Source: Synechococcus sp. BIOS-E4-1
Lineage (GTDB): Bacteria > Cyanobacteriota > Cyanobacteriia > PCC-6307 > Cyanobiaceae
Direction: 5' to 3'
DNA: 64,000 nucleotides
NCBI RefSeq assembly: GCF_014279995.1
Contig: NZ_CP047935.1
Span: forward strand, 2,067,494 to 2,131,493
Shown here: in pieces, positions 26,149 through 31,024 of the stretch
How the letters are laid out: each line of letters opens with the position of its first letter
How positions within the stretch are numbered: position 1 is the stretch's first letter
Program-made: the position numbers and the translations under genes
The notes under the pieces: generated by a model
Seen by the model: the letters and a program-made list of their open reading frames with translations, nothing else
Told to the model about the DNA's origin: nothing
Database searches by the model: none

Positions 26149-27150
26149 ATGCCCCATCGCTATCGCGCCTTTGGGGCAGAGCTCAGCAGCGATTTGGTTT
26201 TACCTGAATTGACGGCCTCGGAGTCAGCAAGTGACTCACAAGTTCAAATCCAACGGGGAGATCATGAGCAATGGCCCGAACTTGACTCGAGCCCTCACAG
26301 CACTCCAACCCTGCAGTTAGCTCCTCAGGATTGGCGCCTAGAACTTGAAGGCATTGGTTGGTTTCGTGCCACTGGTGGTGAGCGTTTGGAATGGCAGCGC
26401 TGGGATGACAGCGTCAGCGATCGCGACATCCGCGCGTTTGCTGTCACCAGTGGGCTTGGAGCCCTAGCAATCCAGCGTGGTGCATTGGTTTTGCATGGAA
26501 CAGCGCTGGAGCGTGATGGTGAGGCCATCCTGCTGTTGGGACATCCAGCTGCCGGTAAGTCCACCCTGGCCTGGTCTTTGCTTCAAAACGGTTGGCGCTT
26601 ACTCAGCAGTGAGCTCGTTGCCGTGAGCCCTGATGGGTTGGTTCAGCCAGGGATGCATCAACTCAAGCTCTGGCATGACGCTGCTCTGGCTTTGGAATTG
26701 AATTGGGCGCTGCTGCCACCTGTACGAAAGGGACTTAAGCGATATGCGTTGTTAGCTGAAGATTTAGCTTGCACGCCACAGCCAGCACCATTGCGGCTGA
26801 TTTATGGCTTAAATCGCGCAAAAGAGGATTCGCGCAAGGGAGATGACGTTGAGGGAGGCGTTGAAAAGGAAAAATTATCTATCAAGGCTTCACTGAATTT
26901 CTACCAAACAACTGCCTTGATGCGTCTGCGCAACCAAGCCTTCCACGCCAGGATGTATCGAGGCATGGCCGCAGAACCGCAGCTGTTTATGCAGGCAGCT
27001 GCATTAGCGCGAACGGTGCCGTTACATGCCTTGACCGTTCCAGATGGAATCGAAGCAATGGCCGCAAGCCTCAAGGAGGTGGACCTGATGCAACCCGAAT
27101 CGATGCAACAAAGCAGAGAAGCGATAGAAAAAGACGCAAGCAATGAATGA
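26149..27150 (+). CDS. HprK-like (HPr serine kinase-related) protein
   Basis: 333 residues from ATG 26149. The N-terminal 90 residues are variable. The kinase core reads GALVLHGTALERDGEAILLL and then Walker A GHPAAGKST, with the P-loop near residue 135 in this numbering and a following basic/hydrophobic region. This is the HPr-kinase fold used in RiPP tailoring (lasso-peptide kinases) and in PqqD-linked 'HPr-rel' systems. There is no PTS here that would need HPr phosphorylation. Its 3' end overlaps the sulfotransferase by 8 bp, so they are probably one operon. Target unknown. Confidence 0.75.
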   Translation: MPHRYRAFGAELSSDLVLPELTASESASDSQVQIQRGDHEQWPELDSSPHSTPTLQLAPQDWRLELEGIGWFRATGGERLEWQRWDDSVSDRDIRAFAVTSGLGALAIQRGALVLHGTALERDGEAILLLGHPAAGKSTLAWSLLQNGWRLLSSELVAVSPDGLVQPGMHQLKLWHDAALALELNWALLPPVRKGLKRYALLAEDLACTPQPAPLRLIYGLNRAKEDSRKGDDVEGGVEKEKLSIKASLNFYQTTALMRLRNQAFHARMYRGMAAEPQLFMQAAALARTVPLHALTVPDGIEAMAASLKEVDLMQPESMQQSREAIEKDASNE

Positions 27151-28024
27151 AGATCACAGCTACTGGTATCTGGCTTCTTATCCAAAATCTGGCAACACCT
27201 GGTGCAGGGTTTTTATCACTGAATTGATAAAACTTGCAGGAGACAATACTGGAGAAGAACTCAACCTTAATCAGGATATTGAAACTGGAGCGATTGCCTC
27301 ATCCAGGCTTTGGCTGGACGACCAATTAGGAGTCAATAGTTGTGATCTAAGTTTTAGTGAACTTGATCTGTTGCGTGGACATGCCGGTGCCAGTGCATGG
27401 CTATTCGCAGAAGGAGAGCGCTTTCATAAAGTCCATGATGCATTTCAATCTCCTGATTCTCGTGGACGCCCGGTGGTGAGTACAACAGGTTGCTCTGGAG
27501 TTGTTTATATACTGCGCCACCCAGAGGATGTAGCCGTATCACTCAGTCACTTCTTCTCATGGCCGCTGGGTCGGTGCGTTGATTTCCTACTGGATGCCAA
27601 TGCAGCGCTGGTGCCAGGCGAACGCTTTGGCGGCCATCAGGTGCGTCAATACATGGGCCGCTGGGATCAACATGTCCGCTCATGGGCTGATCAAACTCAG
27701 CTACCAGTCTTGATCATGCGCTATGAGGATATGTTAGCGAAAGGATTGGAAACATTCACAGAACTAGCAACCTTTTTAGGCCTCCCGAACGACGATCATC
27801 TGATTGATCAAGCACTAGAAAACACTTCTATTGAAAAACTCAAGAAACTTGAAGAAGACGTTGATGGCTTTGCAGAAAAGCCTGTCGGTTGTGAGCGTTT
27901 CTTTCGCTCAGGTCGTACAGGAGAAGGAGCAGAGCAGCTTTCAATCGAGCAGAGAAAACGACTCGCCAAGGGATTATCTGACACCATGAAACGCTTTGAA
28001 TATGAAGGGCCAGAAGTTGACTGA
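27143..28024 (+). CDS. PAPS-dependent sulfotransferase domain protein
   Basis: 293 residues. The 5'-phosphosulfate loop YPKSGNTW is at 13-20 and the 3'-phosphate motif YILRHPEDVAVSLSHFF at about 122-138, with Arg125 and Ser133. The C-terminal FFRSGRTGEG stands in for the usual RKGxxGDWK. These features fit cytosolic sulfotransferases that move sulfate from PAPS to an alcohol or amine. It overlaps the kinase gene by 8 bp and the next gene by 23 bp. Base composition is AT-richer than core neighbours. The acceptor (peptide, glycan or lipid) is unknown. Confidence 0.85.
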   Translation: MNEDHSYWYLASYPKSGNTWCRVFITELIKLAGDNTGEELNLNQDIETGAIASSRLWLDDQLGVNSCDLSFSELDLLRGHAGASAWLFAEGERFHKVHDAFQSPDSRGRPVVSTTGCSGVVYILRHPEDVAVSLSHFFSWPLGRCVDFLLDANAALVPGERFGGHQVRQYMGRWDQHVRSWADQTQLPVLIMRYEDMLAKGLETFTELATFLGLPNDDHLIDQALENTSIEKLKKLEEDVDGFAEKPVGCERFFRSGRTGEGAEQLSIEQRKRLAKGLSDTMKRFEYEGPEVD

Positions 28025-28577
28025 TCCACGAATTGAATTTGTATTTGGAGAGGTGAATGACCAGCTGAAACGTGAGTTGAGAGCTTTCTGGAGCCAGCAT
28101 AGAAATGCATATCAAGAAGAGTTGAGATCGTTCAAAACTGTATCAAGAAACAGCCATAGCTTAGAGCAAATAGATCTGCTCAAAAAGCCCATATCGCGAC
28201 AGCCAGCCGCAATCTCACGTGATCAATCAGGAGCAATTAATGGAATTGTCTTTGTCGTATTACGAGAGCTGGAAACTTCACTAGAGCTTGGAAGCCATGC
28301 CTACTTTCAACGCATGTACATCACGCCAATAGCCCGAAATACCTTCCAGCAACGTTTAGCGAATCAGCTCTTTAAGACATTCCTTCGGGGGTTTGATCGC
28401 GAAGTAGAGAAGCGTGATCATCGAGCAAAAGTATTACTAGCTGAAAACATTAATCCTGGCTTACAGAAAGCATCCATGCGGCGTTATTTTGCACGCCTTG
28501 GCTTCCAAATGCTTGGAGGGAATCAACTTGGCGGTGAAATTTGGGTAAGAAAACTAAAAACACATTTCTCGTTTTAG
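28002..28577 (+). CDS. GNAT-like protein of unknown function
   Basis: 191 residues from ATG 28002; another ATG lies 6 bp upstream. The middle region FQRMYITPIARNTFQQRLA followed by NQLFKTFLRG resembles GNAT motif A, and ENINPGLQKASMRRYFARLG with FQMLGGNQLGGEIW resembles motif B and the last strand. Family likeness is weak, so acetyltransferase activity is only suggested. It overlaps the sulfotransferase end by 23 bp, so translation is likely coupled. It ends 4 bp inside the convergent PqqD-like gene. Confidence 0.6.
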   Translation: MKGQKLTDPRIEFVFGEVNDQLKRELRAFWSQHRNAYQEELRSFKTVSRNSHSLEQIDLLKKPISRQPAAISRDQSGAINGIVFVVLRELETSLELGSHAYFQRMYITPIARNTFQQRLANQLFKTFLRGFDREVEKRDHRAKVLLAENINPGLQKASMRRYFARLGFQMLGGNQLGGEIWVRKLKTHFSF

Positions 28578-28855
28578 TCATCAACCACGGCAATCACCTT
28601 TTTCTCCAAGCCAGCTTCTAGCCAAGCCTCAACAGATAGCTTGCATTCATCCGGGGAGACTTCATATTCGCCCTGTAAATGCTTGCAGAGTTCAGGCAGT
28701 GTTGGTTGAGTTTTCAGTGCGTTCCAAATAGCTGAGCCTGTCTCATTGAGAACAAGATAGTCGCAAGTGTTACTTTGAAATAAAGCGACTTCGCCATCGA
28801 GCTCAGTACAAACAGCATGGTGATGCTGCTTAAAACGTTTGGTGCTACTAACCAT
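28574..28855 (-). CDS. PqqD-like (RRE-fold) small protein
   Basis: 93 residues. The order of motifs is that of PqqD: DGEVALFQSNTCDYLVLNET, GSAIWNALKTQPTLPELCKH, then a C-terminal helix with LEAGLEKK. PqqD-fold domains bind leader peptides in RiPP biosynthesis, or occur beside HprK-like kinases in uncharacterised systems. It is on the opposite strand from the kinase-sulfotransferase-GNAT genes and overlaps the last by 4 bp. No peptide precursor is evident next to it. Confidence 0.75.
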   Translation of the reverse strand: MVSSTKRFKQHHHAVCTELDGEVALFQSNTCDYLVLNETGSAIWNALKTQPTLPELCKHLQGEYEVSPDECKLSVEAWLEAGLEKKVIAVVDD

Positions 28856-28917: not shown

Positions 28918-29748
28918 GTGACACGTCAACCACTCTATCTGCCAGCAGGCCACCCCTTTCACATTACGCTCAGATGCAATAGTCGCATCGGCAATTCTTA
29001 ATCGCCAAAGGTTTGAGGCCTGATGCGCTTCTAGCTGTACTCACCAAAGCCACGCAGAAGCTGCCTCATCGCTTGTATGCGGTGTGCCTGACGGCTAACC
29101 ATCTGCACTTGCAAGTGCGTCCTGATGATGCAAAAGAGCTGCCGAAATTGATGCATTGGGTTGCGTGGACTTCAGCGATGGCACTAAACCGCCTTTCTGG
29201 TCGCTGTGGGCATTTTTGGGAAGCCAGATATTACGCCACTGCGATTGCTCCAAAAGATCACAGGCGAGTGCTGAATACCTTGCGGCATCTCCACGCCAAC
29301 CCGGAAGAAGCTGGGGTGCGAAAAGAATTTTATTACCCCTATTCAAGTTACGAGCACTACGGCAGGTAGTGTGATGGCATCAGTGAGTGGCACCCCAGTT
29401 TTTTGGCAATTGGCATCAAGCCTGAAAGGCTTTTCCAGGAGATATGAGTGGTTTTGCCAGTACTACCGCCACAAAAGCAAAGGCGGCTCTGGGTTCCATT
29501 GGGGCTCAGGAATACTGAAACGACTGATTGAAAAAGGCAGAGGCAGACCAAGCAAAAAGGACCGAGTATCACAAGGACAATTGAAATCACCACTTGCCTT
29601 TATTATCAGACTCAATCAAATTACAAAAGAGTGGCAGCAAGTTTCGGTGAGATTTAGAAGAGCGAATGGCATCCGCGGTGTTGACACAAAACTGTTGTTC
29701 AATAGATTACTTTCTCAATTAACGATGCAACTACAGAGCAACAACTAG
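28918..29748 (+). pseudogene. Decayed REP-associated tyrosine (Y1/HuH) transposase
   Basis: Three frames rebuild one transposase. GTG 28918 gives TRQPLYLPAGHPFHITLRCN, then the frame shifts near 28985-28995. The next frame gives FLIAKGLRPDALLAVL and, with the metal-binding HLH, LTANHLHLQVRP, up to a TAG at 29367. It reads on as CDGISEWHPSF, and at a T-run near 29400 shifts to FWQLASSLKGFSRRYEWF, continuing to 29748. The expected catalytic Tyr before HANP is His (RHLHANP). Two frameshifts, a stop and the lost Tyr indicate an inactive copy. It shows past mobile DNA next to the kinase/sulfotransferase block. Confidence 0.8.
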
Positions 29749-29944: not shown

Positions 29945-31024
29945 TTACCATAAGCCCGTAGTCCAAACTAATTTAGTGTATGTGTTAATGCTGCCTGCGG
30001 TCGTAAAGCGCTCTTTTCTGCAATGATATTTATGCTTATTAACATCTGTTGTAATTGAAGCTTTGTTGCAGCGCTGACCCGTGATTTTTGCTGCATCATG
30101 AATGCGTATATTCCTGTTTTTAACGCTTTCAGACAAACCTTGAATGGTTGGTTTTTGCCATGCTTTTTTCTTGATTTCCGCAGCAGTACTATTGCTACCA
30201 AAGCGATAGCTGATGTTTCCTGAAACTCTGGTTTCAAAAGCTTCGTCATAGGAAACATTGATGCCAGCAGTTAAACCATCAGCGATCTGATAATCCAGCT
30301 CCACCTGTACGCCTGAACCATCTGCTTCTCCTAGATCTCCGCTTTGGTAGTAGTAACCAACAGAGGCATTGAGTTCAGGGGTGATGAAATAACCAACATC
30401 CAGGCCATAGGTATCAAGTGCCCCGCCGAGATAACGGCTATTGAGGCGCTGCTCCGTATCACCGACAGGGACAAGAGCGTAGGCATTGAAGTTCCAGGTA
30501 TCAGAGACTGCTTCTAACCCAGCGGCGATTTGCTGGAAAAAAGCACTTTCCTTGTCGTAGAGCGTGACACCTGAGTCAGCATTGCCTGTATTCATTGGCC
30601 TGCTGTCATAGCCAGCATTCGCCCCGAACATCCAGGAGCGGTCGCCATTCAGCCAGCGGTAGCCAAGTCTTGATGAGGTGCTGATTGTTGTACCAGCGAC
30701 CTCGGTGTTGACGATGCTGCTGGTGCCGCCGTAATCAGCAAAGTTGGCGTTGAGCAGAACATCAGCAAAGAACACACTGTTCTCGCCCACAGCAATTGGC
30801 AGAAACCCGCCGATACCGGCTTGATTGGGTGTGCCTGCTCCCTGGAGTGCGCCTTGAAAACCCCAGTTGAACTTGACCGCATCCTTGAGGTTGATCTCCA
30901 TGACCCCGAGATCATCTGCACTGCCCTCTTCTTCTTGAGCAGATGCAGGCAGCAGAGGTGTATTAGCGAGTGCCAGTGCAGCAACACCGCTCAGCGATAA
31001 CGACAGGCGCAAAGAACGCTGCAT
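29945..31024 (-). CDS. Secreted outer-membrane beta-barrel protein (inverse-autotransporter-like)
   Basis: 359 residues from ATG 31024; a GTG at 31051 would add nine. The signal peptide ends PASAQ, near residue 30. Next comes EINLKDAVKFNWGFQGALQG, then repeating amphipathic strands such as SRLGYRWLNGDRSWMFGANA and YGLDVGYFITPELNASVGYY, a pattern of an outer-membrane barrel like the inverse-autotransporter (intimin) beta domain. After the barrel (about residue 280) there is only a short Lys-rich tail of about 80 residues. Related marine Synechococcus proteins may carry longer C-terminal parts. It probably sits in the outer membrane and may display the tail. Confidence 0.65.
   Translation of the reverse strand: MQRSLRLSLSLSGVAALALANTPLLPASAQEEEGSADDLGVMEINLKDAVKFNWGFQGALQGAGTPNQAGIGGFLPIAVGENSVFFADVLLNANFADYGGTSSIVNTEVAGTTISTSSRLGYRWLNGDRSWMFGANAGYDSRPMNTGNADSGVTLYDKESAFFQQIAAGLEAVSDTWNFNAYALVPVGDTEQRLNSRYLGGALDTYGLDVGYFITPELNASVGYYYQSGDLGEADGSGVQVELDYQIADGLTAGINVSYDEAFETRVSGNISYRFGSNSTAAEIKKKAWQKPTIQGLSESVKNRNIRIHDAAKITGQRCNKASITTDVNKHKYHCRKERFTTAGSINTYTKLVWTTGLW

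Follow-up and report, generated by a model that had tools for sequence, protein, structure and literature searches.

A lasso-type tailoring cassette in marine picocyanobacteria and its probable target, an inverse-autotransporter-like outer-membrane protein

Introduction

What would a kinase-like protein, a sulfotransferase, an acyltransferase-like protein and a PqqD-like protein modify when they are encoded in four overlapping genes with no free precursor peptide beside them? The question is raised by positions 26149..28855 of a 64,000-nucleotide stretch of Synechococcus sp. BIOS-E4-1 (contig NZ_CP047935.1, positions 2,067,494 to 2,131,493 of the forward strand), here called the window. A preliminary description of the window, made from its sequence alone, had proposed that these genes form one reduced and unusual modification system of a picocyanobacterium, with the PqqD-like protein as a leader binder, and saw no clear precursor. 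In this study, we followed the four genes (the cassette) through 400 genomes of the family and 31 genomes of the genus. The cassette is probably a tailoring module of the lasso-peptide type that has been redirected to a surface protein, a reading to which we give a probability of about 0.7; the proposed precursor and substrate is an outer-membrane protein (OMP) whose gene lies ~1.1 kb outside the interval above.

The Cassette and Its Distribution

Three plus-strand genes encode a kinase-like P-loop protein of the HprK/lasso-kinase type (26149..27150, 333 aa), a 3′-phosphoadenosine 5′-phosphosulfate (PAPS)-type sulfotransferase (27143..28024, 293 aa) and a GNAT-fold acyltransferase-like protein (28002..28577, 191 aa), and they meet a convergent minus-strand gene for a PqqD-like protein (28574..28855, 93 aa). 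All four open reading frames (ORFs) were confirmed as first described, with overlaps of 8 bp between kinase and sulfotransferase, 23 bp between sulfotransferase and GNAT, and 4 bp between GNAT and PqqD. The PqqD-like protein scores above the cut-off of Pfam PqqD PF05402 (E 2.9e-13), and the solved structures that its family matches best are the lasso B1 proteins 5v1u (2.9e-17), 9x90 (3.8e-17), 9x8z (1.3e-10) and 6jx3 (3.9e-8). By sequence it is a member of the lasso B1/RRE family, of the leader-binding B1 type, and a candidate recognition element for ribosomally synthesized and post-translationally modified peptides (RiPPs), so the leader-binding type first proposed for it is supported. The sulfotransferase matches Pfam Sulfotransfer_1 PF00685 above cut-off (E 3.6e-17). 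The GNAT-like protein found no convincing Pfam or NCBIfam model (best Lectin_N, E 0.15, below cut-off); its AlphaFold model (single chain, pLDDT 83) has GNAT topology, and the best PDB matches of that model are GNAT acetyltransferases at low TM-scores (~0.4, best E 2.1e-4).

Membership in two known cassette types and in an anti-phage defense library was considered and dropped. Against HprK_rel_A (TIGR04352) the kinase-like protein reaches 53.4 bits (cut-off 200) and against TIGR04353 the PqqD-like protein reaches 25.9 bits (cut-off 35), so the link to HPr-rel-A systems raised in the preliminary description is not supported, and of the PqqD and HprK_rel_A profiles that it had named only the former was matched above its cut-off. 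The SynChlorMet models ScmC (24 vs. 125 bits) and ScmD (22.8 vs. 100 bits) fell short as well, and membership in both systems was dropped with all four NCBIfam models below cut-off. Five window proteins compared with the PADLOC models of anti-phage defense matched none of them at E 0.01, and membership in that library was likewise dropped.

A whole-genome search found a second, diverged copy of the cassette in the window's own genome, and a recount across the family gave 21 cassette loci in 18 genomes. The order and orientation (kinase, sulfotransferase, GNAT, then convergent PqqD) is kept at all 21 as far as the sequence reaches, and all four genes are uninterrupted ORFs in 17 of them, the remainder comprising a split sulfotransferase frame (L021), a kinase without its N-terminal part (the second copy in L022) and two cuts at contig ends (L231, L232). 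A kinase match at ≥50% identity over most of the length occurs in 16 of the 400 family genomes and a PqqD-like match at ≥50% in 18. This co-occurrence in other genomes, whose absence the preliminary description had named as a refutation, upholds the proposal of one system, and its portrayal as a reduced, unusual modification system is supported.

Searches of the available cassette-locus sequence (for the window, 24–33 kb) gave no homologue of the lasso cyclase, B2, NTP transferase or ATP-binding cassette (ABC) exporter; cyclase and B2 were sought by blastp at 1e-4 with three cyclases and three B2 proteins of related loci. There is no peptidase among the four cassette genes and no B2 homologue at the cassette loci, the rest of the genome not having been searched for peptidases. 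A free precursor peptide adjoining the cassette was rejected after a small-ORF scan of 18 loci, in which frames with [KR]..[YW]..P.[LIV] were scattered and unconserved. The absence of a precursor first reported thus holds for conserved free peptides at these loci and fails for the neighboring OMP, which carries a leader motif.

A Leader Motif in the Neighboring Outer-Membrane Protein

The inverse-autotransporter-like OMP is encoded at 29945..31021 on the minus strand (358 aa). A single-chain prediction gives it a 12-stranded β-barrel (30200..30868, residues 52-274, coordinates computed from residue numbers), a pore-linker region (30095..30199, residues 275-309) and, as the proposed core, a hypervariable tail of 49 aa with two Cys (29948..30094). 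The predicted model has the type Ve architecture of an N-terminal 12-stranded barrel, a pore linker and a C-terminal passenger, and its structural alignment with intimin/invasin extends to residue 310. Within the linker lies KKAWQKPTI (30143..30169, minus strand), a WxxPxI motif built around W288. We noted this motif before we found that [Y/W]xxPx[L/V/I/F/A] is the published leader motif docking into PqqD-like RREs in lasso and LPP pathways, backed by structures and mutants, and that WxxP is typical of paeninodin-like precursors (PMC13381572, available part).

An OMP-family gene lies within ~1.5 kb beyond PqqD, on the same strand as PqqD, at 17 of the 18 loci with PqqD-side sequence (L028, L136 and L140 stop at contig ends), the one at L021 being a fragment. 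The family is multi-copy, with six matches in the window's own genome and up to 21 in one genome (G013; fragments and Trp-less members included), and matches occur in 22 of the 31 genus genomes. The presence of an OMP alone was rejected as a partner signal because many cassette-free genomes have OMPs.

To follow the motif itself, 130 OMP proteins were collected, fragments without the barrel end being left out; one contig-cut protein whose linker ends after KKKAW and has no parsable tail (L096) was dropped, leaving 129 with usable linkers from 44 genomes, as compared with 77 genomes among the 400 of the family that match the OMP at all. The ORF of one of them (L141) begins after an in-frame stop. 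A K-rich stretch followed by WxxPx[I/L] is present in 53 of the 129, with the Trp invariably 22 residues before the end of VHD, and none of the other 76 has an aromatic residue at that position. Each of the 17 cassette genomes that yielded a usable OMP has at least one motif-bearing OMP, as do 2 of 27 others (Fisher p 2.5e-10, in a test that treats related genomes as independent); among genomes ≥93% complete the figures are 13/13 and 2/22. One further cassette genome, with its cassette at a contig end, has no usable OMP (G111). When all 900 pairs of linker position and residue (45 by 20) were scanned, the Trp told genomes with the cassette from those without it better than any other pair, leading by about three orders of magnitude.

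The share of motif-bearing OMPs is 21/21 beside cassettes, 27/56 at other sites of cassette genomes (as judged by the kinase) and 5/52 in other genomes, and three of those five belong to G170 and G380, later found to bear the cassette. Four genomes have a motif-bearing OMP and no kinase match; G170 and G380 among them hold PqqD, GNAT and a partial sulfotransferase beside an OMP at contig ends. All four barrel groups contain both states, and on a barrel tree of 121 of the 129 OMPs the Trp state changes at least 14 times. At the level of sequence comparison, it is a linker residue and not the barrel that tracks the cassette.

Similar leaders accompany relatives of the cassette enzymes. Small ORFs with such leaders, e.g. 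KLEWVTPKIS, KSWIKPEI and KKWVTPKL, were found at 7 of 10 family loci with lasso-type kinase relatives (L142-L151), eight ORFs in all and each ending in Ser; L145, L147, L150 and L023 yielded no plausible precursor, and further pattern-matching frames (L148, L149, L150 and elsewhere) were dismissed as chance. A relative of the sulfotransferase is also present at L142-L145 and L151, and the proteins of L143, L149 and L151 include confirmed members of the Asn_synthase, Transglut_core3, ABC and NTP_transf_5 families. At L142, L143, L144 and L151 (not L145), kinase and sulfotransferase stand with precursors that have a WxxP leader and a C-terminal Ser, the 12 kb examined of L144 holding these genes only. 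The five loci with both enzymes are candidate sources of sulfated, phosphorylated lasso peptides. In distant cyanobacteria (L033, L034, L035), a protein with a barrel and a right-handed β-helix is encoded just upstream of a lasso-type cluster with an Asn-synthetase-like protein, an HprK-like kinase and YxxPx[L] precursors, joined in L033 and L035 by an ABC transporter and a nucleotidyltransferase.

Tailoring Enzymes and the Variable Tail

Sulfation is the most likely chemistry of the cassette, to judge from the conserved motifs and structural matches of the sulfotransferase. YPKSGNTW and RxPxDxxxS are kept in all 16 sulfotransferases aligned (the latter as RHPEDVAVS in the window), and PDB matches include SULT1A, Teg12, Teg14 and StaL, of which the last three sulfate glycopeptides. 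Compared with motif-less tails of the same genomes, tails of motif-bearing OMPs have less Asp/Glu, more Ser/Thr/Tyr and equal Lys/Arg, modest effects among about a dozen residue classes tested. This shift would be expected if negative charge were added to the tail, and it only suggests that the core is modified.

The part played by the kinase-like protein is less clear-cut. A fully active kinase, with phosphorylation as the main chemistry as in the LPP and paeninodin pathways, would fit the GKST P-loop kept in all 19 kinases aligned, and HprK-like kinases do phosphorylate Ser of paeninodin and LPP precursors (PMC13381572, PMC8498205, available parts). However, the HprK Asp-Asp pair is replaced by Ser-Glu in the window and in all 11 cassette kinases aligned, against Asp-Asp in 8/8 lasso-type relatives, and 3 of the 11 have Asn or Gln where the His would stand. 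The C-terminal Ser that lasso kinases modify is present in just 1 of 53 tails with the motif. Since the Asp pair has a catalytic and Mg-binding role, phosphorylation by the cassette kinase appears doubtful; the protein has the P-loop and lacks the pair that together mark an HprK-like kinase, and the straightforward HprK-type phosphorylation first envisaged is not supported. We regard phosphorylation as the main chemistry as unlikely.

A different target within the same protein would be the linker itself, for example a conserved Lys, or the barrel, modified for folding or pore gating while the variable tail is left as it is. Motif-bearing linkers almost always have K-24, K-25 and K-9 (52, 53 and 49 of 53), K-9 and K-24 follow the Trp among the strongest discriminators of the cassette, and Lys acylation is possible for a GNAT. 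On the other hand, several lasso leaders also have a basic residue two to three places before the aromatic one, so that binding may explain K-24 and K-25; K-25 is common in motif-less linkers too (42/76), and the two kinds of tail differ in composition. This makes a modified linker or barrel distinctly improbable.

Discussion

Gene linkage, the association of motif and cassette, the predicted barrel fold and the hypervariability of the tails are seen in the genomes, and they are consistent with the following mechanism. The OMP would be an inverse (type Ve) autotransporter with a signal peptide, a 12-stranded barrel, a pore linker and a short, hypervariable, disulfide-bonded external tail. While the OMP is still in the cytoplasm, the PqqD-like protein would bind KKxWxxPxI in the linker, a motif of the kind that B1 meets in lasso precursors, and would hand the tail over to the sulfotransferase for sulfation (Ser/Thr/Tyr) and to the GNAT for acylation, the kinase-like protein serving as an ATP-binding accessory or as a kinase with altered chemistry. 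Since PAPS, ATP and acyl-CoA are found in the cytoplasm, modification should come before export. The product would then be carried out by Sec, BAM and the barrel and would stay tethered, not released, as the cassette has no leader peptidase, cyclase or exporter. The cassette would thus be the recognition and tailoring half of a lasso-type pathway, with the autotransporter taking the parts of precursor, exporter and anchor. In marine picocyanobacteria, recognition and decorating enzymes of a lasso pathway appear to have been redirected to hypervariable tails that an autotransporter would display, evolution having presumably run from a lasso-type pathway to the cassette. Somewhat less firmly than the re-targeting itself, we favor the fuller picture of an autotransporter with an internal RiPP leader whose hypervariable tails are decorated by the lasso-type module and displayed uncleaved, a tethered and diversified repertoire that would be a new kind of surface system. 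Its likely role is to cover the cell with a variable and negatively charged coat that protects from phages or grazers, or to take part in recognition.

Several points weigh against the proposed re-targeting to the OMP. The OMP is far commoner than the cassette (matches in 77 vs. 18 of the 400 family genomes, the latter counted by PqqD at ≥50%), so it works without the cassette, and 29 of 80 OMPs in cassette genomes lack the Trp motif. One of the 18 loci has no OMP on its PqqD side (L030), and two near-complete genomes have a motif-bearing OMP and no PqqD match (G019, G025). Ser, Thr and Tyr are all missing from 4 of the 53 tails, and Tyr from 15; strict Tyr-only sulfation was rejected on the latter count. 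Pfam IAT_beta gives the window OMP 12.1 bits, below its 22.3 cut-off. Besides the relatedness of genomes that the Fisher tests ignore, a phylogeny-aware independent-pairs test of Trp against genome cassette status, which counted G170 and G380 as cassette-free, went in the same direction without being significant (4.8 vs. 1.6 pairs, median p 0.375). The motif was first spotted by eye in its own test set, which the all-column scan, G170/G380 and the published motif offset only in part. Finally, binding, each modification, surface display and biological role are steps that we infer.

Side observations at these loci concern losses, duplications and extra genes. The cassette-free genomes G019 (L106) and G025 (L107) each keep one Trp-motif OMP, and G019 shares a nearly identical tail with L141, which comes from a cassette genome. 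In G013 (L022 8038-17723), cassette, transposase and OMP gene are duplicated in tandem, the second kinase being the one without an N-terminal part. Decayed PqqD and GNAT pieces in G164 (L230 7190-7626) lie in a neighborhood that apparently matches that of the G059 cassette (L030), an isolated kinase-like remnant is all that is left in G281 (L236 5991-6121), whose OMPs lack the motif, and a short kinase fragment without any other cassette part stands at an extreme contig start in G146. Genes like 2-oxoglutarate (2OG)-Fe(II) oxygenases stand beside two cassettes, the one in L030 being interrupted, and an extra GNAT paralogue stands beside one; these genes, at L020 6736-7416 and 10566-11123 and at L030 6528-7148, may encode additional tailoring enzymes.

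The loci could also be read as decayed lasso clusters that share genomic islands with a multi-copy OMP by chance, the cassette then targeting a free small peptide encoded elsewhere. The PqqD-like protein is of lasso type, relatives of the kinase and sulfotransferase do stand in lasso-type clusters, and cassette and OMP are both found at varying places or in many copies. A whole or partial RAYT-like Y1 transposase gene (29013..29748, plus strand, in the window) often separates them, lying between PqqD and the variable 3′ end of the OMP gene at 10 of the 17 OMP-bearing cassette loci (the window, L021, L022 twice, L024, L025, L027, L137, L231, L232) and split into two ORFs in the window and L027. 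Chance sharing is nevertheless very unlikely, as a single gene order is kept across 18 genomes, the leader motif sits within the OMP and tracks the cassette, and the small-ORF scan of 18 cassette loci gave no conserved free precursor. An operon modifying capsule or polysaccharide with no peptide link is very improbable: glycans are frequent sulfotransferase targets, but a lasso-type PqqD and a WxxP-bearing neighbor would go unexplained, relatives of the sulfotransferase occur in lasso-type clusters, and its PDB matches include glycopeptide-sulfating enzymes.

If the proposed re-targeting is correct, RiPP-type recognition would act on an outer-membrane protein in place of a free peptide, and autotransporter secretion would replace peptidase and exporter. 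It would account for a hypervariable surface-protein family of ecologically important picocyanobacteria and make surface diversification directly testable. It also provides a search rule, [WY]xxPx[LIV] in the pore linkers of autotransporters encoded close to a PqqD-like gene, and might open a way to display enzymatically modified peptides on cells. Among the matches listed in the open-licence PMC literature, no title concerned RiPP machinery acting on an autotransporter. In the searchable parts of two surveys, the terms PqqD, lasso and sulfotransferase are absent from the one on marine Synechococcus RiPPs (PMC10783134), and outer membrane, kinase and sulfotransferase from the one on RREs (PMC12710340). 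Porins are reported in marine Synechococcus exoproteomes by a paper whose available part does not mention hypervariable tails or autotransporters (PMC4949707).

Comparison With Known Systems

By their family names, the HPr-rel-A and SynChlorMet (Scm) cassettes of NCBIfam each pair an HprK-like with a PqqD-like protein, as here, whereas the window proteins stay below the cut-offs of all four models. Paeninodin-type lasso clusters share the WxxP leader, the B1/PqqD protein and the HprK-like kinase with the cassette (PMC13381572, available part). They differ in that the cassette loci examined have no homologue of the Asn-synthetase-like cyclase, the B2 transglutaminase-like peptidase (the pair that defines a lasso cluster), the NTP transferase or the ABC exporter, and in that the kinase Asp pair and the C-terminal Ser site are lost. 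Tailoring of the kinds proposed here does occur in lasso pathways, with HprK-like kinases acting on a C-terminal Ser, a GNAT in albusnodin and a 2OG hydroxylase in canucin, and a putative sulfotransferase gene is described in Firmicutes lasso clusters (PMC8498205, available part).

The LPP RiPPs (lpp clusters, Bacillota) come close to the cassette in combining an HprK-like kinase and a discrete PqqD-like RRE without a lasso cyclase, and their [Y/W]xxPx[V/L] leader resembles the OMP linker motif; they have, in contrast, a free ~7.8 kDa precursor, an SpI-like leader peptidase, an exporter and an NTP transferase (PMC13381572, available part). The cassette has a sulfotransferase and a GNAT, no peptidase or exporter and, as proposed precursor, a 358-aa OMP, so the LPP gene set (HprK kinase, RRE, SpI peptidase, MsbA-like exporter, NTP transferase) is not assembled at the cassette loci examined.

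On the side of the substrate, the OMP model resembles the inverse autotransporters intimin and invasin in barrel, linker and C-terminal passenger. Their passengers are Ig-like adhesin domains, unlike the short, hypervariable, Cys-paired tail of the OMP, and the RiPP-type leader motif inside the linker sets the OMP apart as well. The prochlorosins of marine picocyanobacteria, with a conserved leader and hypervariable Cys-bearing cores, offer another likeness to the OMP family, although they are free peptides cyclized by LanM and not tethered to a barrel. ProcM-like LanM enzymes are reported in the marine Synechococcus RiPP survey (PMC10783134, available part). Measured against RiPPs in general, leader cleavage and small-peptide release find no counterpart within the four cassette genes or the cassette loci examined, whereas a ribosomal precursor with an RRE leader motif does: in sequence tests, the WxxPxI of the OMP linker tracks the PqqD-like gene.

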